A stretch of DNA of 56,665 nucleotides. Source: Prevotella sp. GTDB lineage: Bacteria; Bacteroidota; Bacteroidia; Bacteroidales; Bacteroidaceae. Both the position numbers and the translations under genes were made by a program. The notes beneath the pieces were generated by a model. It was not told the DNA's origin, searched no databases, and saw nothing but the letters and a program-made list of their open reading frames with translations. The DNA is taken from the NCBI GenBank assembly GCA_017428925.1, contig JAFRPY010000021.1, positions 1 through 56,665 of the forward strand, read 5' to 3'. Shown piece by piece: positions 2,709 through 49,159 of the stretch (the first letter of the stretch is position 1; every line of letters begins with the position of its first letter).

Positions 2709-3962
2709 TTGGAAAGAACCTGGAGATGGTTTGGCAAGAAGGACAAGATTACGCTTGCCATGCTGAAACAAATCGGAGTGGAGGGCATCGTGACGGCCCT
2801 GCACGATGTGCCGCTCGGCGAAGTGTGGACACGTGAGAAAATTCGCGACCTGCGAGAGTATATTGAATCCTACGGCATGCGATGGAGCGTGGTGGAGAGC
2901 CTGCCCGTGGTGGAGACCATCAAGTACGGCGGTCCCGACCGTGACCATCAGATAGAGGTCTATAAGGAAAGCCTCAGAAATCTCTCGGCAGAGGGCATCC
3001 ACTGCATTTGCTACAACTTCATGCCCGTGCTCGACTGGGCCCGCACCGACCTGTTCCACAACAATCCCAACGGTGCCACGAACCTCTACTTCAACTATGC
3101 CGAATTTGCCTATTTCGACATCTACATCCTGAAGCGTGAGGGTGCCCGCGAGGAATGGGCGCAGTTCCGCTTCCCCGAAGGCGTGGGCGAAGGCCGCAAC
3201 GTGCTGGCTGAGTGCGATGAACTGGCCAAGACGATGACGCCCGAGATGGATCACAAACTGGTGGAGAACATCGTCATCAAGACGCAGGGATTCGTATCGG
3301 GCAATTTCAGCGAGAACGACGAGGCTCCCGTGCAGAAGTTCCGCGAGTTCCTCGACCTCTACAAGGGCATCGACAAGGCTCAGTTGCGCGCGAACATGAA
3401 GTACTTCCTAGAGGCCATCATGCCCACTTGCGAGGAATACGGCATGAACATGTGCGTGCATCCCGACGATCCCCCCATCGAGATTCTCGGACTGCCGCGC
3501 ATCGTGCGCACCGAGGAGGATATCCAGTGGTTCCTTGATGCCGTTCCCAACAAGCACAACGGCCTTACCTTCTGTGCAGGAAGTCTTTCGGCCGGAGCAT
3601 ATAATAACGTAGTTGAACTGGCCAAGAAATTCGCCTCGCGCACCCATTTTGTTCACCTGCGCTCGTGCCACATCTTCCCTAATGGCGACTTCACCGAGGC
3701 CAGCCACCTAGGCGGACGTGCCGACCTGATTGAACTCTGCCGCATCTTCGAGAAGGAGAATCCTGAGTTGCCCATGCGTGTTGACCACGGCATGACCTTC
3801 ACCGACGAGCCTGGTGGCATCCTCGACGAGAGCAGCCACGGCCATAATGCCGGCTATACGCTCCTTGGCCGCATGTTCGCCCTCGGACAGGTGCAGGGCA
3901 TCCTTGCCACCGTTGACCGCGAGTTGGGAATAGATTACAAACAGCCAGGGTTCTACGATTAA
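2709..3962 (+). CDS. uxuA: Mannonate dehydratase
   Basis: UxuA dehydrates D-mannonate to 2-keto-3-deoxy-D-gluconate in glucuronate catabolism. The 417-residue protein opens TWRWFGKKDKITLAMLKQIG and contains GIVTALHDVP (about 26-35), MCVHPDDPP (248-256) and RVDHGMTF near the C-terminus, all typical of the metal-dependent xylose-isomerase-fold family. The best start is an unusual TTG at 2709: no in-frame ATG or GTG lies between the promoter and the conserved ERTWRWFG segment. It is followed by uxuB, and with uxaC at 30.5 kb it supplies the glucuronate-to-KDG steps. A palindromic repeat begins four bases after its stop. Confidence 0.93.
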   Translation: MERTWRWFGKKDKITLAMLKQIGVEGIVTALHDVPLGEVWTREKIRDLREYIESYGMRWSVVESLPVVETIKYGGPDRDHQIEVYKESLRNLSAEGIHCICYNFMPVLDWARTDLFHNNPNGATNLYFNYAEFAYFDIYILKREGAREEWAQFRFPEGVGEGRNVLAECDELAKTMTPEMDHKLVENIVIKTQGFVSGNFSENDEAPVQKFREFLDLYKGIDKAQLRANMKYFLEAIMPTCEEYGMNMCVHPDDPPIEILGLPRIVRTEEDIQWFLDAVPNKHNGLTFCAGSLSAGAYNNVVELAKKFASRTHFVHLRSCHIFPNGDFTEASHLGGRADLIELCRIFEKENPELPMRVDHGMTFTDEPGGILDESSHGHNAGYTLLGRMFALGQVQGILATVDRELGIDYKQPGFYD

Positions 3963-3964
3963 GA

Positions 3965-3996
3965 ACCCACCCCCAACCCCTCCCGAAGGGAGGGGA
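3965..3996 (-). repeat. G/C-rich palindromic repeat, copy A (uxuA 3' end)
   Basis: An 8-bp perfect inverted repeat (CCCCTCCC at 3977-3984, GGGAGGGG at 3988-3995, 3-nt loop) is preceded by a C-rich flank. Read on the minus strand it gives the family pattern: palindrome, three bases, then a G-rich tail. It lies in the uxuA-uxuB gap and could also form an RNA hairpin there. Confidence 0.75.
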
Positions 3997-4027
3997 GTTT
4001 TTACAACGACAATAAAAATAATATATT

Positions 4028-5659
4028 ATGAGACTAAACGATATTATACAGTTTAATTCAGAATACGTAGCACAACACCCCTCCCTTGGGGAGGGGACAG
4101 GGGGTAGGCTCCTTGAATGGGAGACCAAAGGCTATGAACTCCCTAAGTTTGACATCAAGGCCCTGCGCGAAAAGACCGCCAAGGAACCCACATGGGTGCA
4201 TTTCGGAGGCGGTAACATCTTCCGCGCCTTCCCTGCCGCCATCCTCAACGATGCGCTAAACACGGGCAAGTACGACCGGGGCGTCATCGTAGCAGAGACC
4301 TTCGACTTCGAGGTCATCGACAAGGCCTATGCCCCCTACAACAACCTTTCGCTTTGTGTGAACCTCTGCTCCGACGGCACCATCGAGAAGAAGGTCATCG
4401 CTAGCGTGACTGAAGCCCTGAAGGCTGACCCGCAGTTTGAGGACTGGAACCGGCTGGTGGAGATTTTCCGCAACCCATCGCTCCAGATGATTTCGTTCAC
4501 CATCACCGAAAAGGGCTATAGCTACAACGAAGCTGATTTGGCCCGCGGACTGAAGCCCGTGTTTGCATTGGGCAAGGTGACCGCATTGCTTTATGAGCGC
4601 TGGCAGGCAGGACAATTGCCCCTCACTGTCCAGTCGATGGACAACTGCTCGCACAACGGTGACAAGGTGAAGGCTGGTGTGTTCGCATACGCCGAACGCT
4701 GGGCTGCAGACGGACTTGTGCCACAGGCTTTCGTGGACTACCTGAAGGATGAGAGCAAGATTACGTTCCCGTGGTCGATGATTGATAAGATTACCCCGCG
4801 CCCACACCAGAAGGTGAAGGAAATGCTGGCTGCCGACGGATTCGAGGACAACGACTATATCGAGACCGAAAAGCACACGTTCACCGCACCCTTCGTGAAT
4901 GCTGAGGAAGTGCAGTATCTGGTCATCGAGGACAACTACACCAACGGCCGTCCCCCACTCCATCTCGGCGGGGCGCTCTACACCACTCGCGAAACCGTTG
5001 ACAAAGTGGAGACCATGAAGGTGACCACCTGTCTGAATCCGCTCCACACCGCCATGAGCATCTATGGTTGCATGCTCGACTACACGCTCATCTCGGCAGA
5101 GATGGCCGACGAAGACCTTCGTCCGTTCATCCAGAAAATCGGCTATATCGAAGCGATGCCTGTGGTGACAGACCCGGGAGTGCTCAATCCTTACGAGTTT
5201 ATCGGTGCCGTCATCGACCGTCGTCTGCCCAATCCATTCATGCCCGATGCTCCCCAACGTATCGCTATGGACACCTCGCAGAAGCTGCCCATCCGTTTTG
5301 GCGAAACCCTGAAGAAATACATCGCCCGTGGTCTGGACAAGAGTAACCTTGTGCTCATCCCGCTCACACTGGCCGGTTATGCCCGCTACCTGAAGGGCAT
5401 CAAGGACAATGGAGAACCGTTTGAGCCGTCGCCCGACCCCATGCTTGCCGAACTTCAGGCCATCGTTGCACCGCTCGAGATTGGCAAGCCTGACCAAGAC
5501 TGGAGTCCCCTGAAGAAACTTTATTCCCGCAAGGATGTCTTCGGTCTTGACCTCTACGAGGCAGGACTTGGCGAACAGATTGAAGGAATGGTGAAGGAAC
5601 TATATGCCGGACCGGGAGCCGTACGCGCCACGCTACATAAATATGTAGCCGCCCGCTAA
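4028..5659 (+). CDS. uxuB: Fructuronate reductase / mannitol dehydrogenase family oxidoreductase (UxuB role)
   Basis: The 543-residue protein belongs to the long-chain mannitol dehydrogenase family. THWVH-like FGGGNIFRAF (59-68) is the N-terminal dinucleotide-binding region, and the central and C-terminal conserved blocks (ITEKGYSYN, MDNCSHNGD, FPWSMIDKITPRP) are present. Next to uxuA, the expected reaction is NAD(P)H-linked interconversion of fructuronate and mannonate. Residues 17-27 (HPSLGEGTGGR) are encoded by a palindromic repeat and look like an in-frame insertion ahead of the conserved WETKGYELPKFD segment. An alternative without the insertion would need a start inside the conserved region, which is not available. 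Assignment to fructuronate rather than mannitol or altronate rests on the neighbour. Confidence 0.85.
   Translation: MRLNDIIQFNSEYVAQHPSLGEGTGGRLLEWETKGYELPKFDIKALREKTAKEPTWVHFGGGNIFRAFPAAILNDALNTGKYDRGVIVAETFDFEVIDKAYAPYNNLSLCVNLCSDGTIEKKVIASVTEALKADPQFEDWNRLVEIFRNPSLQMISFTITEKGYSYNEADLARGLKPVFALGKVTALLYERWQAGQLPLTVQSMDNCSHNGDKVKAGVFAYAERWAADGLVPQAFVDYLKDESKITFPWSMIDKITPRPHQKVKEMLAADGFEDNDYIETEKHTFTAPFVNAEEVQYLVIEDNYTNGRPPLHLGGALYTTRETVDKVETMKVTTCLNPLHTAMSIYGCMLDYTLISAEMADEDLRPFIQKIGYIEAMPVVTDPGVLNPYEFIGAVIDRRLPNPFMPDAPQRIAMDTSQKLPIRFGETLKKYIARGLDKSNLVLIPLTLAGYARYLKGIKDNGEPFEPSPDPMLAELQAIVAPLEIGKPDQDWSPLKKLYSRKDVFGLDLYEAGLGEQIEGMVKELYAGPGAVRATLHKYVAAR
4078..4108 (+). repeat. G/C-rich palindromic repeat, copy B (inside uxuB)
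   Basis: CCCCTCCC (4078-4085), TTG, GGGAGGGG (4089-4096), ACA, then a G-rich tail to 4108. It is read in frame as residues 17-27 of UxuB and is in the opposite orientation to copy A, with centres about 101 bp apart. Confidence 0.8.
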
Positions 5660-7839: not shown

Positions 7840-8493
7840 CTATTCCTCGTAAATGGTAGTATCCGGAATGCCGGCATCGGCCAGAGCCTCCTTTCGCTCC
7901 ACGCAGGTGCCGCATTTTCCGCAATGATGACTGCCGCCTTTATAGCAACTCCATGTCTTGGAATAGTCAATGCCGAGTTCTTTCCCTCGCATTGCAATCT
8001 TGCTCTTTGTGATATTCGTATAGGGCGCAAAGATTTCTATACCTGGGAAAGTGCCGGTACGTGTAGCCTCGCTCATGGCACGCACAAACTCCGGACGGCA
8101 ATCAGGATAGATGGTATGGTCGCCTCCGTGGTTGGCCATCATCACATACTTCAGATTACGGCTCTCGGCAATTCCTGCGGCAATAGCCAGCATGATGCCA
8201 TTACGGAACGGAACCACCGTTGACTTCATGTTTTCGTCGGCATAGTGGCCTTCGGGAATGGCATCATCTCCCGCCAAAAGCGAACTCTTGAAATAGTCAG
8301 GCATGAATGCCAATGGGATAACGATATGTTCAATGCCCAGTTTCTTGGTATGATATTTGGCGAAGGGCAGTTCTTTTCCATTATGGTTGCTCCCATAGTC
8401 GAATGATACGGCCAGGGCAATCCGCTCGCGGTAATCATATAGCAAGGTGGTGGAATCCATGCCACCACTCAGAATCAGCACACAGTCTTTCAT
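7840..8493 (-). CDS. queC: 7-cyano-7-deazaguanine synthase
   Basis: QueC converts 7-carboxy-7-deazaguanine to preQ0 with ATP and ammonia, a step in queuosine biosynthesis. The 217-residue protein has the PP-loop SGGMDS at 9-14, the FRNGIMLAIAAGIAE region (96-110) and HGGDHTIYPDCRPEF (122-136). Four zinc-binding cysteines lie near the C-terminus (C183, C191, C194, C197). All signature residues are intact. No queD or queE is adjacent. It is transcribed alone from a promoter shared back-to-back with the DUF4923 lipoprotein gene. Confidence 0.95.
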   Translation of the reverse strand: MKDCVLILSGGMDSTTLLYDYRERIALAVSFDYGSNHNGKELPFAKYHTKKLGIEHIVIPLAFMPDYFKSSLLAGDDAIPEGHYADENMKSTVVPFRNGIMLAIAAGIAESRNLKYVMMANHGGDHTIYPDCRPEFVRAMSEATRTGTFPGIEIFAPYTNITKSKIAMRGKELGIDYSKTWSCYKGGSHHCGKCGTCVERKEALADAGIPDTTIYEE

Positions 8494-8533
8494 GTTGACA
8501 GCCTTAAATTTGCATTTAAATTAAATATCCGTG

Positions 8534-8541
8534 CAAAGATA
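8534..8541 (-). promoter_or_regulatory. -7 element of queC
   Basis: CAAAGATA on the plus strand reads TATCTTTG on the minus strand, 41 bp ahead of the queC ATG. The -33 side is not clear. No preQ1 aptamer was recognised in the short leader. Confidence 0.55.
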
Positions 8542-8582
8542 TATCAAATTATTTGAAAACGGAGGAAAAATACGGGAATGAT

Positions 8583-8613
8583 TTTGAATTATCAGAAATA
8601 AAGTGTATTTTTG
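8583..8613 (+). promoter_or_regulatory. Consensus Bacteroidetes promoter for the DUF4923 gene
   Basis: TTTG at 8583-8586, exactly 19 bp, then TATTTTTG at 8606-8613. This is one of the best matches to the consensus in the window. Confidence 0.75.
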
Positions 8614-8651
8614 CATAAATTTATCAGTAAGAACAACTAAAAATCAAGACA

Positions 8652-9287
8652 ATGAAAAAGATTTCACTTTTAGCAGCAAGTGCTGTGTTTGTTCTCAGCG
8701 GCTGTATGGTTGGCAATACGGGAACGGGAAACAATGCCGGAAACATTTTGGGGTCGATTCTTGGTGCGGCTACCAACGCTAATACCATCGGAAACATCCT
8801 CTACGACGTGATTGGATATAACAAACTCAGTCAGGCTGACCTCATCGGCAACTGGCAATACTATCAGCCGGGATGCGCATTCACCTCAGAGAATCTTCTG
8901 GCCAAGGCCGGTGGTCATGTTGCAGCCACCAAGGCAAAAGAAGACCTGACTCCCACCTATCAGAAGTTGGGCATCACTTCGGCCAACACTTATTTCCAGT
9001 TTGCTGAAAACGGACAGTTTGCCGGAAAGATTGACGGACAGCCGCTTAGCGGAACATATACATTCAACACCAGCGACCAGAGCATCCAGTTGAAGACGCT
9101 CCTGCTTACTATTAAGGGCTATGTAAACCGAAATCCACAGGGCATTTCCCTGCTGTTCGAGTCAAAGAAACTGCTCTCCGTACTTCAAACTATTTCGGCA
9201 GTTAGCGGCAACAGCACATTGAGCAGCGTGGGCGAGCTGACAAAGAACTATGACGGAATCCGTCTGGGTCTCGACCTTACCCATTAA
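8652..9287 (+). CDS. DUF4923 family lipoprotein
   Basis: The 211-residue protein has a lipoprotein signal with lipobox LSGC and the acylated cysteine at residue 18. A Gly/Asn-rich linker follows (GNTGTGNNAGNILGSILGAATNANTIGNILYDVIG). The rest, from LIGNWQYYQPGCAFTSENLLAKAGG, matches DUF4923, a Bacteroidales lipocalin-like family of unknown role. It is probably anchored in the outer membrane facing the periplasm; that location is inferred from the signal only. It stands alone with its own promoter and no operon partner suggests a function. Confidence 0.8.
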   Translation: MKKISLLAASAVFVLSGCMVGNTGTGNNAGNILGSILGAATNANTIGNILYDVIGYNKLSQADLIGNWQYYQPGCAFTSENLLAKAGGHVAATKAKEDLTPTYQKLGITSANTYFQFAENGQFAGKIDGQPLSGTYTFNTSDQSIQLKTLLLTIKGYVNRNPQGISLLFESKKLLSVLQTISAVSGNSTLSSVGELTKNYDGIRLGLDLTH

Positions 9288-9417
9288 TCGCCAATCAGCA
9301 GCCAATATTTTTGCGAATTACAATGAAATTGTAAACCACAATTTGCATTTCTCCACGGGAACTGCAAAAAAGTTGAAATTTATGGACTTCACGCTTACGA
9401 ATTCCAACTATTTGTTG
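9288..9417. other. Gap between the DUF4923 gene and pgk
   Basis: Contains an A/T-rich dyad TTACAAT-GAA-ATTGTAA at 9318-9334. It may be a weak terminator or a binding site, but lacks a clear T-run. Nothing else was seen. Confidence 0.35.
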
Positions 9418-11929: not shown

Positions 11930-13507
11930 ATGAAACTCCACTGGATTGATATGGTCATCGTCATACTGTCGCTCCTGGCGGCAGTCGGCGTTGGCGTCTG
12001 GTTCTCGCGCAAGCAGAACTCCACCAAAGCCTACTTCGCGGCCAACGGCAGCGTGCCCGCCTGGGCGGTAGGCATGTCTATGTTTGCCACCATCATCTCA
12101 AGCGTCACCTTCCTCGCCTATCCGGGTGCAGCCTACGGCGGCAACTGGATTCTGCTCGTTCAGGGCCTGATGGTGCCTATCGTGCTTGTCGGAATGATTT
12201 GGTTTATCGTGCCGTTGTTCCGCCGCGTTATCCGGCTTTCCACCTACGAGTATTTTGAGCGCCGTTTCGGGGCTTTGGCACGCTATTACAGTTCATTGGC
12301 CTTCGTGCTGGAGCACTTCGCCAAGATGGGTACCATCCTCTATCTGATGGGTATGGCAATGGCCACCTTCACGGGCGTGGACATCACGTATATCATCGTG
12401 TTCATCGGCATCGTCATCATCCTGCTCACCTATCTGGGCGGCATGGAAGCCATCATCTGGATGGACGTGGTGCAGGGCTTCCTGCTCATTCTCGGCGGTG
12501 TGCTCACGATAGGCATCCTGTTCTATCTGACTGACGGCGGAGCGGCAACCATCTTCCAGGTGGCAGGCGAATACGATAAGATTGACCTCGGCCCTTACGA
12601 CTGGGATTTCCACGAGCGTACGTTCATCGTGCTTGTTGTCAACGGTATCTTCTATGCCGTACAGAAGTATGGCACCGACCAGAGCATCGTGCAGCGCTAT
12701 CTGGCTGCAAAGGATGAGAAGAGTGCCAAGAAGGCCAGTTACATGGGTGTGCTGATGAGCGTGCCTGCGTGGGCTTTGTTCATGTTCGTGGGCACCTGCC
12801 TGTTCGTGTATTATCACCTGAATCCCTCTCCCGAGGTGGCCGCCCTGAAGAGCGACCAGGTGTTCCCCTACTTCATTGCCAACGAATTGCCCATCGGTAT
12901 CTGCGGACTGATCATTGCGGCTCTGGTGGCCGGTGCCATTTCCAGTATCGACAGTGATGTGAACTGCATCTCGGCGGTCATCGTGGAAGACTACTACGGA
13001 CGGCTGAAGAAGAATGCAACCGACAAACAGAAACTGCTGGTGGGACGCGCCTCGGTGCTCGTCATCGGCATCCTGAGCATCTTCATTGCGCTGCTTTATG
13101 TGTCATGGGGCGGCGAAGGAGTGCTTGGAACGCTCTTCGGACTCTATGCCATCGTGTCGGCTGGCATCGTGGGCATCTTCCTGCTCGGACTGTTCTCGCG
13201 CAGGGCCAACTGGCAGGGCGTCTATATCGGCATTGCCTGTGCGGTCATTTTTACGGCCTACGCCATCCTGACCACCACCTCTTTCGAAACCGCTGACGGC
13301 ACCAAGAAACTGATGCTCGACCTCGGCGACTACAACTTCAGCCACCACACGCTGATGCTCGGTGTTTATAGCCATCTCATCGTGCTCATCGTGGGCTATC
13401 TGGCCAGCCTCTGTTTCAAGACTCCGTTGGCCGACAAGGAACTCACGGTCTATGGTTATCTGGAAGAGCGGAAACAACAAAAGACCCACCCCTCACCCTC
13501 CCTATAG
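11930..13507 (+). CDS. Sodium:solute symporter (SSS family)
   Basis: The 525-residue protein has about 13 hydrophobic transmembrane segments and SSS hallmarks: an N-terminal WIDMVIVILSLLAAVGVGVWF helix, FATIISSVTFLAYPG near residue 50, a tyrosine-rich loop with STYEYFERRFG (about 104-114), and GAISSIDSDVNCISAV in the C-terminal half. It couples inward Na+ flow to uptake of a small organic solute. Its operon partners suggest a sugar acid. The last seven residues (THPSPSL) and the stop are contributed by a palindromic repeat, so the original C-terminus was probably replaced or extended. Confidence 0.88.
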   Translation: MKLHWIDMVIVILSLLAAVGVGVWFSRKQNSTKAYFAANGSVPAWAVGMSMFATIISSVTFLAYPGAAYGGNWILLVQGLMVPIVLVGMIWFIVPLFRRVIRLSTYEYFERRFGALARYYSSLAFVLEHFAKMGTILYLMGMAMATFTGVDITYIIVFIGIVIILLTYLGGMEAIIWMDVVQGFLLILGGVLTIGILFYLTDGGAATIFQVAGEYDKIDLGPYDWDFHERTFIVLVVNGIFYAVQKYGTDQSIVQRYLAAKDEKSAKKASYMGVLMSVPAWALFMFVGTCLFVYYHLNPSPEVAALKSDQVFPYFIANELPIGICGLIIAALVAGAISSIDSDVNCISAVIVEDYYGRLKKNATDKQKLLVGRASVLVIGILSIFIALLYVSWGGEGVLGTLFGLYAIVSAGIVGIFLLGLFSRRANWQGVYIGIACAVIFTAYAILTTTSFETADGTKKLMLDLGDYNFSHHTLMLGVYSHLIVLIVGYLASLCFKTPLADKELTVYGYLEERKQQKTHPSPSL

Positions 13508-13514
13508 GGAGGGA
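13484..13514 (-). repeat. G/C-rich palindromic repeat, copy C (symporter 3' end)
   Basis: CCCTCCC (13496-13502), TATA, GGGAGGG (13507-13513), with a C-rich flank from 13484. It is in minus orientation like copy A. It encodes the last residues and the TAG stop of the symporter. Confidence 0.78.
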
Positions 13515-25589: not shown

Positions 25590-27485
25590 TTAAAACTTTT
25601 GTTCATATTGATAGACATTCTCCACATAGTTGACAAAGGCCTGGTTAACAAGCCGGTTGCCGCCAGGTGTGGGATAGTGGCCCGTAAAATACCAGTCGCC
25701 ACGATGGTTTGGGCAAGCCTTGTGAAGTCCCTCGATGCTTTGATAGACAATCTCAACGGGAGTCTGCATGCCTTTGGGGCGCAGCATTTCCACAATCTTC
25801 TGGTTGATTTCCTTTACCGAGAATGGTTCGTAAACGGTTCGCATCCGGTTGCGCATCTCGCTTTTGGGCTTCTTCAGTTCTTCCTTACATGCCACGTAGG
25901 TGTCCTCGATAATCTTGTGGAGGCCGCGCTCCTTAAGCAGTTCGATGACTGCACGGAAAGCACAGAACTCTTCCAGACGGGGCATGTCGATGCCGTAATA
26001 ATCGGGATACCGAATCTGTGGCGAACTGGAAACCATCACAATCTTCTTGGGGTGCAGACGGTCGAGAATCTTGAAGATACTCTCTTTCAACGTGGTTCCG
26101 CGCACGATAGAATCATCGATGATAACCAGGTTGTCCTTATAGGGTCGCAGGCTTTCGTAAGTGATGTCGTAGACGTGCGAGGCAAGGTCGTTTCTGGAGC
26201 TGCCTTCGGTGATGAAGGTACGCAGCTTGATGTCCTTCCACGCCACTTTTTCGGAACGCACTTTGGTGTCGAGAATCTGCTTCAGTTCTGCTTCGTTGGG
26301 CACATGGTCCATGCGTGCTATCTGCTCCGCCTTCTTTTCGTTCAGATGGTTTTTAAATCCATCGAGCATTCCGTAGAAGGCCACTTCAGCCGTATTGGGG
26401 ATGAAAGAGAACACCGTGTCGCGCGTTTCACCATTGATGGCATCGTGAATGGGTTGCATCAGCTGCTCGCCCAGTTTCTTGCGCTCCTGGTAAATGTCGC
26501 GGTCGGAACCACGACTGAAATAGATACGCTCGAAGGAACACTTGGCATCAGCTTTCTGCGGAATAATCTCTTCGATGAAACTGTTCCCGTTCTTGTTGAC
26601 AATCAGCGCACAGCCGGCAGGCAACTCGCTGATGTCTTCACACTCCAAGTCGAAAGTGGTCTGCAATACGGGACGTTCGCTGGCCAAAACAATAATCTCA
26701 TCATTCTTGTAATAGAAAGCGGGACGAATACCCCACGGATCGCGAACGGCAAACATCTCACCGCTGCCCGTCAGGCCGCACATCACATAGCCGCCGTCAA
26801 AGTCGGGCATGGTGGTTTTCAAGACATTCTGCATCTTGACGTGGTCATCAATGTAGCGGGTAATGTCCTTGTTTTCGAGTCCTCTCTGCTTGGCTTCCAC
26901 GAAATTCCGCTCCACCTCGCGATCGAGCCTATGCCCCATCAGTTCAAGCATAATATAGGAATCGCTATAGATTCGGGGGCATTGTCCCTGTTCGGTAATC
27001 TTATCGAAAAGCTCTTCGATGTTGGTCATGTTGAAATTACCGCAAAGGCAAAGATTCTTGGCACGCCAGTTGTTACGGCGCAAAAATGGATGAACATAAG
27101 AAAGGCCACTCTTGCCGGTGGTTGAGTACCGGAGGTGGCCCATATAAAGTTCTCCACAGAAGGGTAAGTTCATCTTAGCATAGCTGACGTCAGATAGCTG
27201 TTCATGCGTCAAACCATTGAAATGACTTTGAGCATTGGCAAAGATTTGGGTGATGGCGTCTTTCCCTTCAGCCCGTTCGCGGAACATGTATTCAGTCCCT
27301 GGAACGGCTTCGAGGTTGACACATGCCATACCCGCGCCCTCTTGTCCGCGATTGTGCTGTTTCTCCATCATCAGATAGAGTTTGTTCAGCCCATACATCC
27401 ACGTGCCGTATTTCTGTTGATAGTATTCGAGTGGTTTCAGCAGGCGAATCATCGCCACACCGCATTCATGTTTGAGTTGTTCCAT
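25590..27485 (-). CDS. PurF-like class II amidotransferase / phosphoribosyltransferase, long form
   Basis: The 631-residue protein combines an Ntn glutaminase domain (HECGVAMIRLL with the candidate nucleophile C8 after a short propeptide; QHNRGQEGAG at 43-52; GHLRYSTTG at 116-124; LCLCGNFN) with a phosphoribosyltransferase domain holding LVIIDDSIVRGTT (about 453-465). It is longer than classical PurF (about 470-500), with an insertion-rich middle and an extra C-terminal region of about 130 residues. It forms an operon with carA and carB. With the cysteine-less homologue at 16632-18050, either protein could be the main PurF. This one alone has an obvious glutaminase cysteine. Confidence 0.85.
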   Translation of the reverse strand: MEQLKHECGVAMIRLLKPLEYYQQKYGTWMYGLNKLYLMMEKQHNRGQEGAGMACVNLEAVPGTEYMFRERAEGKDAITQIFANAQSHFNGLTHEQLSDVSYAKMNLPFCGELYMGHLRYSTTGKSGLSYVHPFLRRNNWRAKNLCLCGNFNMTNIEELFDKITEQGQCPRIYSDSYIMLELMGHRLDREVERNFVEAKQRGLENKDITRYIDDHVKMQNVLKTTMPDFDGGYVMCGLTGSGEMFAVRDPWGIRPAFYYKNDEIIVLASERPVLQTTFDLECEDISELPAGCALIVNKNGNSFIEEIIPQKADAKCSFERIYFSRGSDRDIYQERKKLGEQLMQPIHDAINGETRDTVFSFIPNTAEVAFYGMLDGFKNHLNEKKAEQIARMDHVPNEAELKQILDTKVRSEKVAWKDIKLRTFITEGSSRNDLASHVYDITYESLRPYKDNLVIIDDSIVRGTTLKESIFKILDRLHPKKIVMVSSSPQIRYPDYYGIDMPRLEEFCAFRAVIELLKERGLHKIIEDTYVACKEELKKPKSEMRNRMRTVYEPFSVKEINQKIVEMLRPKGMQTPVEIVYQSIEGLHKACPNHRGDWYFTGHYPTPGGNRLVNQAFVNYVENVYQYEQKF

Positions 27486-27498
27486 CTATCGATTATCC

Positions 27499-27506
27499 CA
27501 AAATTA
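27499..27506 (-). promoter_or_regulatory. Candidate -7 element just upstream of the long PurF-like gene
   Basis: CAAAATTA on plus is TAATTTTG on minus, only 13 bp before the ATG. If used, the mRNA would have a leader of roughly eight bases. The 22-bp array begins about where -33 should be. Confidence 0.4.
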
Positions 27507-27521
27507 TCTAATATATCATTT

Positions 27522-27631
27522 GCAATCAGACTTTATTTAATCAGCAATTAGACTTTATTTAACCAGCAATTAGACTTTATTTAACCAGCAATTAAAGTCT
27601 ATTTGAAGTGCAATTAGACTGCGTTTGCAAT
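27522..27631. repeat. 22-bp tandem array, type i, five units
   Basis: Five units of exactly 22 bp start at 27522, 27544, 27566, 27588 and 27610. Their core is GCAATTAGACTTTATTT. Units two and three are identical; the outer ones diverge. The array fills the gap between glmS (3' end) and the long PurF-like gene (5' end). The same unit recurs at 48988-49119. Confidence 0.88.
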
Positions 27632-27653
27632 CCAATCGCTATAGGCTGCTATT

Positions 27654-36669: not shown

Positions 36670-36779
36670 TTATTTTAATCAGTACAAAAGGCTAAAACTG
36701 GTTGTTCTAAAGCCTAAAACTGATAGTTCTAAAGGTTAAAACTGGTAGTACTAAAGCCTAAAACTGGTAGTACTGAACT
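36670..36779. repeat. 22-bp tandem array, type iii, four full units plus a partial one
   Basis: Units start at 36692, 36714, 36736 and 36758, exactly 22 bp apart, with the core TAAAACTGGTAGTACTAAAG. A degenerate unit precedes them at 36670-36691. The sequence is unrelated to types i and ii but has the same period. It lies downstream of rny and upstream of nrdD. Confidence 0.85.
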
Positions 36780-36912
36780 TTTGTACTACTTTGAAACAAG
36801 TTGTTTACCTTAATCAGCTCTTGTCAAAAACAGGTGTTACACATAGCGGAAATACACTTGTAAAAGGCCCAATAGTATAAAAATCCTTTCTTACTACACC
36901 TATTTATATAAT

Positions 36913-47379: not shown

Positions 47380-48971
47380 ATCAAGAAATAGAAAGAAGAC
47401 GCACCTTTGCCATCATCAGCCACCCCGATGCCGGTAAGACCACGCTGACCGAGAAGTTCCTGCTTTTCGGCGGACAGATTCAGGTGGCCGGAGCCGTCAA
47501 GAGCAACAAAATCAAGAAGACGGCTACTTCCGACTGGATGGACATCGAGAAACAACGCGGAATCTCCGTCTCCACATCCGTTATGGAGTTCGATTACACC
47601 CCTCCTTCTGAGGGGCAGGAGGAGGCCTATAAGGTGAACATCCTCGACACCCCGGGACACCAGGACTTTGCCGAGGACACCTACCGCACCCTGACGGCCG
47701 TCGATTCCGCCATCATCGTCGTCGACGGAGCCAAGGGCGTGGAGGCACAGACGCGCAAACTGATGAACGTCTGCCGCATGCGCAACACACCCGTCATCAT
47801 CTTCATCAACAAGATGGACCGCGAAGGCCGCGACCCCTTCGACCTGCTCGACGAGTTGGAGAACGAACTCGAAATCAAGGTGCGCCCGCTCTCATGGCCC
47901 ATCAACCAGGGCGCCAAGTTCAAGGGCGTCTATAATATCTACGAGCAGAAACTCGACCTCTTCACCCCCGACAAACAGCGCGTCACCGAAAAGGTAGAGG
48001 TGGACATCAACGATGCCGCTGTCCTCGCCGACTTTGTGGGTGAGCAGAATGCCGAGAAACTGCTCGAAGACCTCGAACTCATCGACGGTGTCTATCCTCC
48101 GTTCGACGTCGAAACCTATCGCTCTGCCGAGGTGGCACCCGTTTTCTTCGGCTCGGCGCTCAACAACTTCGGCGTTCAGGAACTGCTCAACTGCTTCGTC
48201 GAGATAGCCCCCAGTCCCCGTCCCACAAAGGCCGAGGAGCGCATGGTGGAACCCGAGGAACCCAAGTTCACGGGATTCATCTTCAAGATAACGGCCAACA
48301 TCGACCCCAACCACCGTTCGTGTATCGCCTTCTGCAAAGTATGCTCTGGAAAGTTCGTGCGCAACCAGCCCTATCTCCATGTGCGCCAGGGCAAGACGCT
48401 GCGCTTCTCCTCCCCCACCCAGTTCATGGCCCAGCGCAAGAGCACCATCGAGGAAGCATGGCCAGGCGACATCGTGGGACTGCCCGACAATGGCATCTTC
48501 AAGATTGGCGACACCCTCACCGAGGGCGAACAGCTTCATTTCCGCGGCCTCCCCTCCTTCTCGCCCGAGATGTTCAAATACATCGAGAACGACGACCCCA
48601 TGAAGTCGAAGCAGTTGCAGAAAGGCATCGACCAGTTGATGGACGAAGGCGTGGCACAGTTGTTCATCAACCAGTTCAACGGCCGCAAGATTATCGGCAC
48701 CGTCGGACAACTGCAGTTCGAAGTCATCCAGTACCGTCTGGAGAACGAGTACAATGCCCGTTGCCGTTGGGAGCCCGTCCACCTCTACAAAGCATGCTGG
48801 ATAGAGGCCGACGACGAGAAGGAACTCGAGGCTTTCAAGAAGCGCAAATACCAGTATATGGCCAAGGACAAAGAAGGCCGCGACGTCTTCCTTGCCGATT
48901 CAGGCTATGTGCTCCAAATGGCCCAGCAAGATTTTGAAAATATCCGCTTCCACTTCACATCGGAATTCTGA
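47376..48971 (+). CDS. prfC: Peptide chain release factor 3
   Basis: RF3 is the GTPase that recycles RF1/RF2 after termination. The 531-residue protein has the P-loop SHPDAGKTT (15-23), [12 protein letters not shown] (switch I), DTPGHQD (91-97), [21 protein letters not shown] (G4), and domains II-III ending in the C-terminal [18 protein letters not shown]. Residues 75-84 ([10 protein letters not shown]) look like a small insertion between MEFDY and [11 protein letters not shown], where E. coli RF3 has only a few residues. The corresponding DNA resembles the G/C palindromic repeat family. Confidence 0.95.
47599..47625 (+). repeat. G/C-rich palindromic repeat, copy F (inside prfC, diverged)
   Basis: CCCCTC, C/TTCT, GAGGGG (6-bp stem), CA, GGAGGAGG follows the family layout in plus orientation. 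It encodes the PPSEGQEEA insertion, in a third reading frame compared with copies B and D. The copy is diverged, so membership is less certain. Confidence 0.5.
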
Positions 48972-48987
48972 TGCTATTTCTTAGTCC

Positions 48988-49119
48988 CCAATTAGACTTT
49001 AATTGCGTTGCATTTAGACTTTGATTGCATTGCATTTAGACTTTATTTGCATTGCATTTAGACTTTAATTGCGTTGCATTTAGACTTTATTTGGGATGGA
49101 ATTAGACTTTGATTTGAAA
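48988..49119. repeat. 22-bp tandem array, type i, six units
   Basis: Six 22-bp units start at 48988, 49010, 49032, 49054, 49076 and 49098, with the core GCATTTAGACTTTATTTGC. It is the same unit family as at 27522-27631, and lies between the convergent 3' ends of prfC and trpG. Confidence 0.9.
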
Positions 49120-49159
49120 GAAAACCATTTCCGTTTTAAGGAGTGGAGATTGAATAAAC

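Follow-up and report, generated by a model that had tools for sequence, protein, structure and literature searches.

The window, as we call the whole stretch of 56,665 nucleotides analysed here, carries a mannonate dehydratase gene, uxuA (2709-3962, plus strand), which matches NCBIfam TIGR00695 with 378 bits against a cut-off of 199.55 and ends with a TAA stop codon at 3960-3962. On the same strand follows a gene (4028-5659) whose product is placed by Pfam in the mannitol-dehydrogenase superfamily of oxidoreductases. Its name, UxuB, rests on this family and on the operon context, because its matches to the fructuronate- and tagaturonate-reductase families fall under the NCBIfam cut-offs. A structure prediction of the protein had a mean pLDDT of 54 and was set aside.

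The junction of the two genes holds two copies of a repeat of the intrastrand-triplex type. Copy A (3966-3998, minus strand) begins 3 bp past the uxuA stop and reads, in the direct orientation, CCCACCCCC-AA-CCCCTCCC-GAA-GGGAGGGG-AGT; its minus-strand tail, GGGGGTGGG, is the mirror of GGGAGGGG with zero mismatches. Copy B (4078-4108, plus strand) lies in frame within uxuB and reads CCCCTCCC-TTG-GGGAGGGG-ACA-GGGGGTAGG, where the tail GGGGGTAGG has one mismatched triplet under the mirror rule described below. The opposed palindromes that the initial annotation reported at this junction are thus present, with loop centres at 3986 and 4087 (101 bp apart), and UxuB residues 17-27, HPSLGEGTGGR, are the translation of copy B, as it had also proposed. 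The stretch between the copies (3999-4077, plus strand) comprises the uxuB leader, the ATG at 4028, and the first codons. When compared with relatives, its ATG region is homologous to theirs, and the residues NSEYVAQ are confined to the three loci that bear the insert. A pattern search located one more copy within the window, the third, from a subfamily with a TATA loop (13485-13513, minus strand), and an Rfam scan of window positions 3000-5000 returned no score near the gathering threshold.

Dispersal and three-segment layout of the repeat

In the window the hairpin pattern is matched 3 times, compared with 0 times in 100 dinucleotide shuffles. The assembly to which the window belongs (G000; 3.56 Mb in 122 contigs, 85% complete, 5.4% contamination) contains 149 such hairpins against 1 for a reversed-pattern control, and the half consisting of purine arm plus tail occurs 144 times against a control of 0. 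The repeat is thus dispersed over the genome, as the initial annotation had supposed. Among 36 genomes of the same genus, the number of hairpins ranges from 0 to 215 per genome, with at least one in 27 of them, and this uneven copy number suggests bursts of amplification.

Each unit consists of a pyrimidine arm, a loop, a purine arm, a short spacer, and a G-rich segment that mirrors the purine arm, this mirror relation being an addition to the initial annotation. The alignment of 66 copies, oriented alike and drawn from the window plus 20 stretches of G000 (356,409 bases including the window), gives the consensus ACTCCCTCCC-loop-GGGAGGG-NN-GGGGTGGG[T/C]C, with stems of CCCTCCC or CCCCTCCC and the tail GGGGTGGG. 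The tail mirrors the purine arm with a T or A facing the A-T pair, which is the rule for an antiparallel purine-motif triplex.

How closely tails follow this rule was measured on stems of any asymmetry and any G-W-G tail, with a duplicate of the window (L098) left out. With strict tails, which have at least 2 Gs on each side of the interruption (135 distinct strings from 189 matches), a full-length antiparallel third strand fits 127 of the 135 strings, and among the 90 strings with unequal stem halves 87 fit an antiparallel third strand and 10 a parallel one; neither tails ending in a single G nor two-base (TA) interruptions, such as that of window copy B, enter this strict version. When tails with one terminal G were admitted (c+d of at least 5), 108/129 asymmetric strings were antiparallel and 21/129 parallel, and 18/129 were strings with one terminal G that break the rule, many of them from one subfamily of the genome G016. 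In the four strings with 4,4 stems the tail is short by one G. Because strings within a subfamily share descent, the independent cases number far fewer than the strings, and the reversal of asymmetry between subfamilies is the stronger point for the mirror rule: in the stem classes (4,2) and (5,2), where the longer half lies at the loop, the asymmetry of the tail is reversed in 7 of 8 strings, as in GGGGAGG-TTT-GGAGGGGG, and the tail is symmetric in the remaining one. Adherence to the rule across subfamilies is evolutionary evidence that the three-strand layout has been kept, beyond what a hairpin alone requires.

By sequence criteria the repeat falls within the intrastrand triplex motif (PIT/TM class II), the folding itself being a prediction. 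This class of potential intrastrand triplex (PIT) elements goes back to Hoyne and Maher, as described in PMC4666352, and includes TM_ECO (Holder et al. 2015), which has the pattern CCCTCNCCC-N3-6-GGGNGAGGG-N3-GGGNGAGGG and occurs in E. coli K-12 in 23 copies, always intergenic, with five inverted pairs (PMC4666352). According to the same source, TM_ECO varies strongly between close relatives and forms a triplex as single-stranded DNA, no stable triplex was seen in vivo, and the E. coli repeats have no assigned function. The Prevotella repeat resembles PIT elements and TM_ECO as they are described there in its order of pyrimidine arm, loop, purine arm, second loop of about 3 nt, and antiparallel G-rich third strand, and likewise in its dispersal, its strong unevenness between close relatives, and the presence of some inverted pairs. 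It differs from TM_ECO in its Prevotella-like host and in its stems, which are 7-8 nt and of CCCTCCC type rather than CCCTCNCCC, so that the subfamily pattern of CCCTCNCCC followed by two GGGNGAGGG segments does not describe it; a large minority of its copies, moreover, lies in coding sequence, whereas TM_ECO is described in PMC4666352 as always intergenic. The main text of that paper contains zero words starting with bacteroid or prevotella and names one Flexibacter as rich in A/T triplexes. In anatomy, then, the repeat belongs to the intrastrand-triplex class, and what seems to be new is the sequence family, the host group, and the many copies in coding sequence.

Copies read in frame within genes

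For uxuB we compared 98 loci, namely the window, the best 80 of 340 contig matches, and 17 further relatives; they give 93 distinct upstream sequences and have uxuA directly upstream in 71 cases. The uxuB relatives of G000 are mostly labelled Prevotella or Prevotellaceae. The N-terminus is of the insert-less type MKLNDIFSGNYNAAEWEAKGYELPKFD in 95 of the 98, which bears out the view that residues 17-27 are extra in UxuB. The three insert-bearing loci (the window, L035, and L048) all read M[KR]LNDII.[YF]NSEYVAQ and keep the reading frame intact, with element sequences that differ among them. Exactly these three also have the copy A hairpin before the uxuB start, and a single copy occurs at 0 of the 98 loci. 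Since the insert stands before the Pfam Rossmann match, which begins at residue 57, it is plausibly harmless to the protein.

The three insert-bearing loci do not group in trees. Their common ancestor spans 90 of 98 tips in the uxuB protein tree, 95 in the DNA tree, and 61 of 71 in the uxuA tree, which a single inherited insertion does not predict; as short genes resolve poorly in trees, inheritance with losses, transfer, and repeated insertion are each possible. At first look, uxuB sequence starting at the conserved PTWVHFG block was unusually similar among these loci over 150 nt. Recombination of the uxu junction between lineages was considered and rejected, as the 60 nt immediately downstream of the insert take middle places (47%, 29%, and 25%) in a similarity ranking from which the L035 rows past 480 nt were excluded because the ungapped comparison was out of register there.

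Beyond uxuB, 82 copies were found by regular expression, after merging of strands and exclusion of TAGG-tailed copies, in the 356-kb sample chosen around listed copies. Of these, 34 lie within mechanically called open reading frames (ORFs) of at least 120 amino acids, 46 lie between ORFs, and 2 at ends; the ORF calls are greedy and uncurated, so that misplaced starts may account for some N-terminal cases and some of the ORFs may be spurious. One such ORF (8017-9405 of locus L146) opposes another long frame, and the element is read through in both. The DNA between called ORFs makes up 9% of the sample and holds 46 of the 80 placeable copies, a strong intergenic excess.

Several of the interrupted proteins are conserved ones. 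In GuaA, a GMP synthase-like protein, the in-frame extra segment is absent from 22 of 24 usable relatives in an alignment from which 4 loci were dropped and in which L240 was misread. The other two, L220 (genome G006) and L235 (G019), also carry inserts at the loop where the G000 protein has the repeat, but ones unrelated to it, which suggests that this loop is a tolerant site. In a RecD-like helicase the extra in-frame segment is an entire inverted pair, lodged in a length-variable loop (alignment showing 28 relatives, with 1 dropped); long variable inserts occupy the same loop in its relatives L249, L250, and L255. A HAD phosphatase has an extra in-frame segment against its relatives (11 shown, 5 dropped), and a UbiA-like protein shows a net gain of about +7 residues against 16 relatives, so a clean insertion does not describe every case. 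Copies also lie in ArgC-, gyrase B-, galactokinase-, pullulanase-, and sulfatase-like ORFs of G000; for ArgC, where solved structures are the sole comparison, the structural match begins C-terminal to the element. In the genome G034 a CCA-adding enzyme contains a 109-bp inverted pair in frame that is absent from the 27 homologous loci shown, with 2 loci unmatched by the search pattern; some of these homologues have other inserts in the same loop. The peptide encoded by the G034 composite matches further places in that genome, several of them in frames of 603-2497 amino acids. All six reading frames of the TTGG-loop consensus are free of stops, as are three of six for the TATA-loop consensus. 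With many stop-free frames and tolerant places such as N-termini and length-variable loops, insertions that keep the frame would survive as extra residues, and the interrupted proteins would presumably remain active.

This behaviour recalls the Rickettsia palindromic elements (RPEs), to which the initial annotation had likened the uxuB insert. As in the RPEs described in PMC3733652, a palindromic repeat is translated in frame within unrelated proteins, and here too these proteins have uninterrupted homologues. The likeness holds for the behaviour, given the extra in-frame segments, and fails for the family: the triplex layout is a feature of the Prevotella repeat, and the CGTC end tag reported in PMC3733652 is absent, by inspection, from the 66 aligned copies. 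Triplex-type repeats occur here within conserved proteins, the GMP synthase-like protein and the CCA-adding enzyme among them. Classic RPE-1 is longer than single units of the Prevotella repeat. In-frame insertion of this kind becomes testable in Bacteroidota, where filled and empty sites are on offer for mapping the chemistry of insertion. For annotators the finding is a caution, because a peptide of PSLGEG or PLPHREG type in a Prevotella protein can be a translated copy of the repeat.

Inverted pairs, candidate functions, and candidate movers

Close neighbours (starts within 150 bp of each other) in G000 are oriented minus-then-plus with tails outward in 11 of 11 cases among the 100 listed of 144 copies, where about 0.6 close neighbours of any orientation would be expected. 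A looser pattern adds 3 same-direction and 2 tails-inward neighbours in G000, and tails-inward pairs also occur in G034. Partners resemble each other, with a core identity of 0.75 against 0.59 for random elements (23 pairs, Wilcoxon p=0.002), and in the uxu pairs the best match is not always an element's own partner. Whether pairs are copies of one fixed cassette was examined by comparing the middles longer than 20 bp of 24 pairs, and homology was found among the uxu orthologues only, apart from three G034 pairs that by eye have part of a middle in common. Most pairs are therefore not one fixed cassette, as their middles are mostly non-homologous.

Rival readings of the elements were weighed, beginning with a plain hairpin or G-quadruplex repeat whose triplex-like mirror has no meaning of its own or was passed down in a few subfamilies. 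Four G-runs separated by short loops, as in GGGAGGGGTTGGGGGTGGG, are found in the main subfamilies and make a G-quadruplex motif by the usual rule, and the shared descent of the mirror cases and the 18 short-tailed elements that break the rule point the same way. A G-quadruplex, however, needs no A/T interruption in the tail that mirrors that of the arm, yet the asymmetric elements are overwhelmingly antiparallel in both versions of the count and the tails of the (4,2) and (5,2) classes are nearly all reversed; window copy B has only three runs of at least 3 Gs. We consider this reading unlikely. Far more improbable is that uxuA has its intrinsic terminator in copy A, which copy B would duplicate by coincidence. 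On the uxuA strand of the window AGTTTTT follows copy A, and in gaps between tandem genes copies opposed to the gene direction outnumber those along it by 20 to 4 (p=0.0015), but the T-run is missing in L035 and L048, contrary to what a conserved terminator would show, termination at copy A would cut off uxuB, and the third segment is left unexplained. The C-rich copy A might instead pair with the G-rich copy B on the uxuAB mRNA and loop out the uxuB start region, a clamp that would tune uxuB translation or mRNA stability, with pairs that bracket starts elsewhere acting likewise. Predicted folds do pair A with B over a span of at least 90 nt (19.9 expected pairs in the window, 42.2 in L035, and 35.3 in L048), and in all three the uxuB start lies inside the fold. 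Eight genomes were sampled and 7 of them yielded 35 tails-outward pairs, of which 11 have an ORF start between their copies and 1 has a stop there, compared with 7.5% and 4.7% under random placement; the remaining pairs have both copies near a start (5; random 10.7%), both in an ORF (11; random 65%), or neither (7; random 12.1%). The bracketing of start codons as a rule is suggestive only, since 3 of the 11 are the uxu locus itself, the class with both copies near a start muddies the count, and several stretches were sampled because pairs were in them. Folding of this type is, moreover, common to any inverted GC-rich pair, and 95 of 98 uxuB loci dispense with the pair altogether; we regard such a clamp as an unlikely but still viable rival.

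As to how the repeat spreads, a RAYT transposase from the resident Y1 family could mobilise it, which would make it a classical REP/REPIN. The likeness to REPs and REPINs is considerable, comprising a short hairpin with an asymmetric flank, a mostly extragenic position, and inverted pairs; G000 has two Y1_Tnp genes, and RAYT genes of the Bacteroidetes subclass 2.6 are described in PMC6006769 as having atypical flanking structures with copies elsewhere in the genome. Yet of the 16 genus genomes that have 10 or more hairpins 8 lack a Y1 match, against 7 of the 20 that have fewer (Fisher p=0.50), and G019, with 215 hairpins, gave zero Y1 matches; as the presence of Y1 does not track hairpin number, a RAYT is not the evident mover, allowing for a possibly missed gene. 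The CCCTCCC family, furthermore, flanks 0 of 31 Y1 loci, these being the best locus of 29 genomes, some of them incomplete assemblies, plus the two of G000 (14 in the genus, 5 of them from genomes that have 10 or more hairpins); one related CCTCCCC-type unit lies near the G000 locus L017. The GTAG foot is likewise not a family feature, as GTAG appears only in copies with the TAGG variant of the tail (8 of the 100 listed from G000), and the mostly non-homologous pair middles are a further difference from REPINs. A classical REPIN is, in our view, improbable. The two Y1 genes of G000, L016 (G000:C68:30684-31043) and L017 (G000:C22:31745-32104), are RAYT-like, with NHVH and YIHQNP motifs, and have by eye nearby repeats of their own, of GAACCGTCCCC type and GGGTCATGGGG type, respectively.

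The reading we favour as probable takes the palindromes for copies of a dispersed, non-autonomous repeat with a class II intrastrand-triplex layout that has also inserted in frame within genes. The repeat would be a unit of roughly 35-48 bp, CCCTCCC-loop-GGGAGGG-NN-GGGGTGGG, with the predicted class II (purine-motif) fold, mobile, standing singly or in inverted pairs with tails outward, as REPs and REPINs do, and landing mostly between genes. At uxuA-uxuB one copy would have landed just past uxuA, and the other in the part of uxuB that encodes the N-terminus, ahead of the catalytic domain. A bolder version, to which we give little credence, makes it a triplex-forming mobile family ('triplex REPIN') whose units and inverted pairs of about 110 bp are copied into genes by a non-RAYT enzyme that recognises the triple helix, start-flanking pairs being kept as translation clamps. 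The statement of the initial annotation that no named equivalent is known in Bacteroidetes holds for the element itself, as none was found in the open-licence PMC literature, and needs qualifying for short repeats at large, since CGTC palindromic repeats are reported from Bacteroidetes among other phyla in PMC3733652, in addition to the RAYT-flanking structures of PMC6006769. The CGTC- and GTAG-tagged repeats described in PMC3733652 are likewise short dispersed palindromes, some of them within ORFs, but neither tag is in the consensus of the Prevotella repeat.

Larger arrangements of the unit were seen in two genomes. G016, a single-contig genome, contains tandem arrays of the unit, with a 44-bp spacing at L178 and L181 and a 66-bp spacing at L185. 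In G034 a homologous repeat of about 190 bp, possibly a larger mobile element, encloses a tails-inward unit pair at L304, L305, L306, and L307; a plasmid search with the G034 composite gave 10 records, all alphaproteobacterial and covering at most 32% of the query, and thus no lead. The window itself also contains tandem repeats with a 22-bp period at 27476-27642 and 48964-49130, which form one direct-repeat family and also have an inverted match, and tandem 22-bp units with TAAAACTG at 36681-36790.
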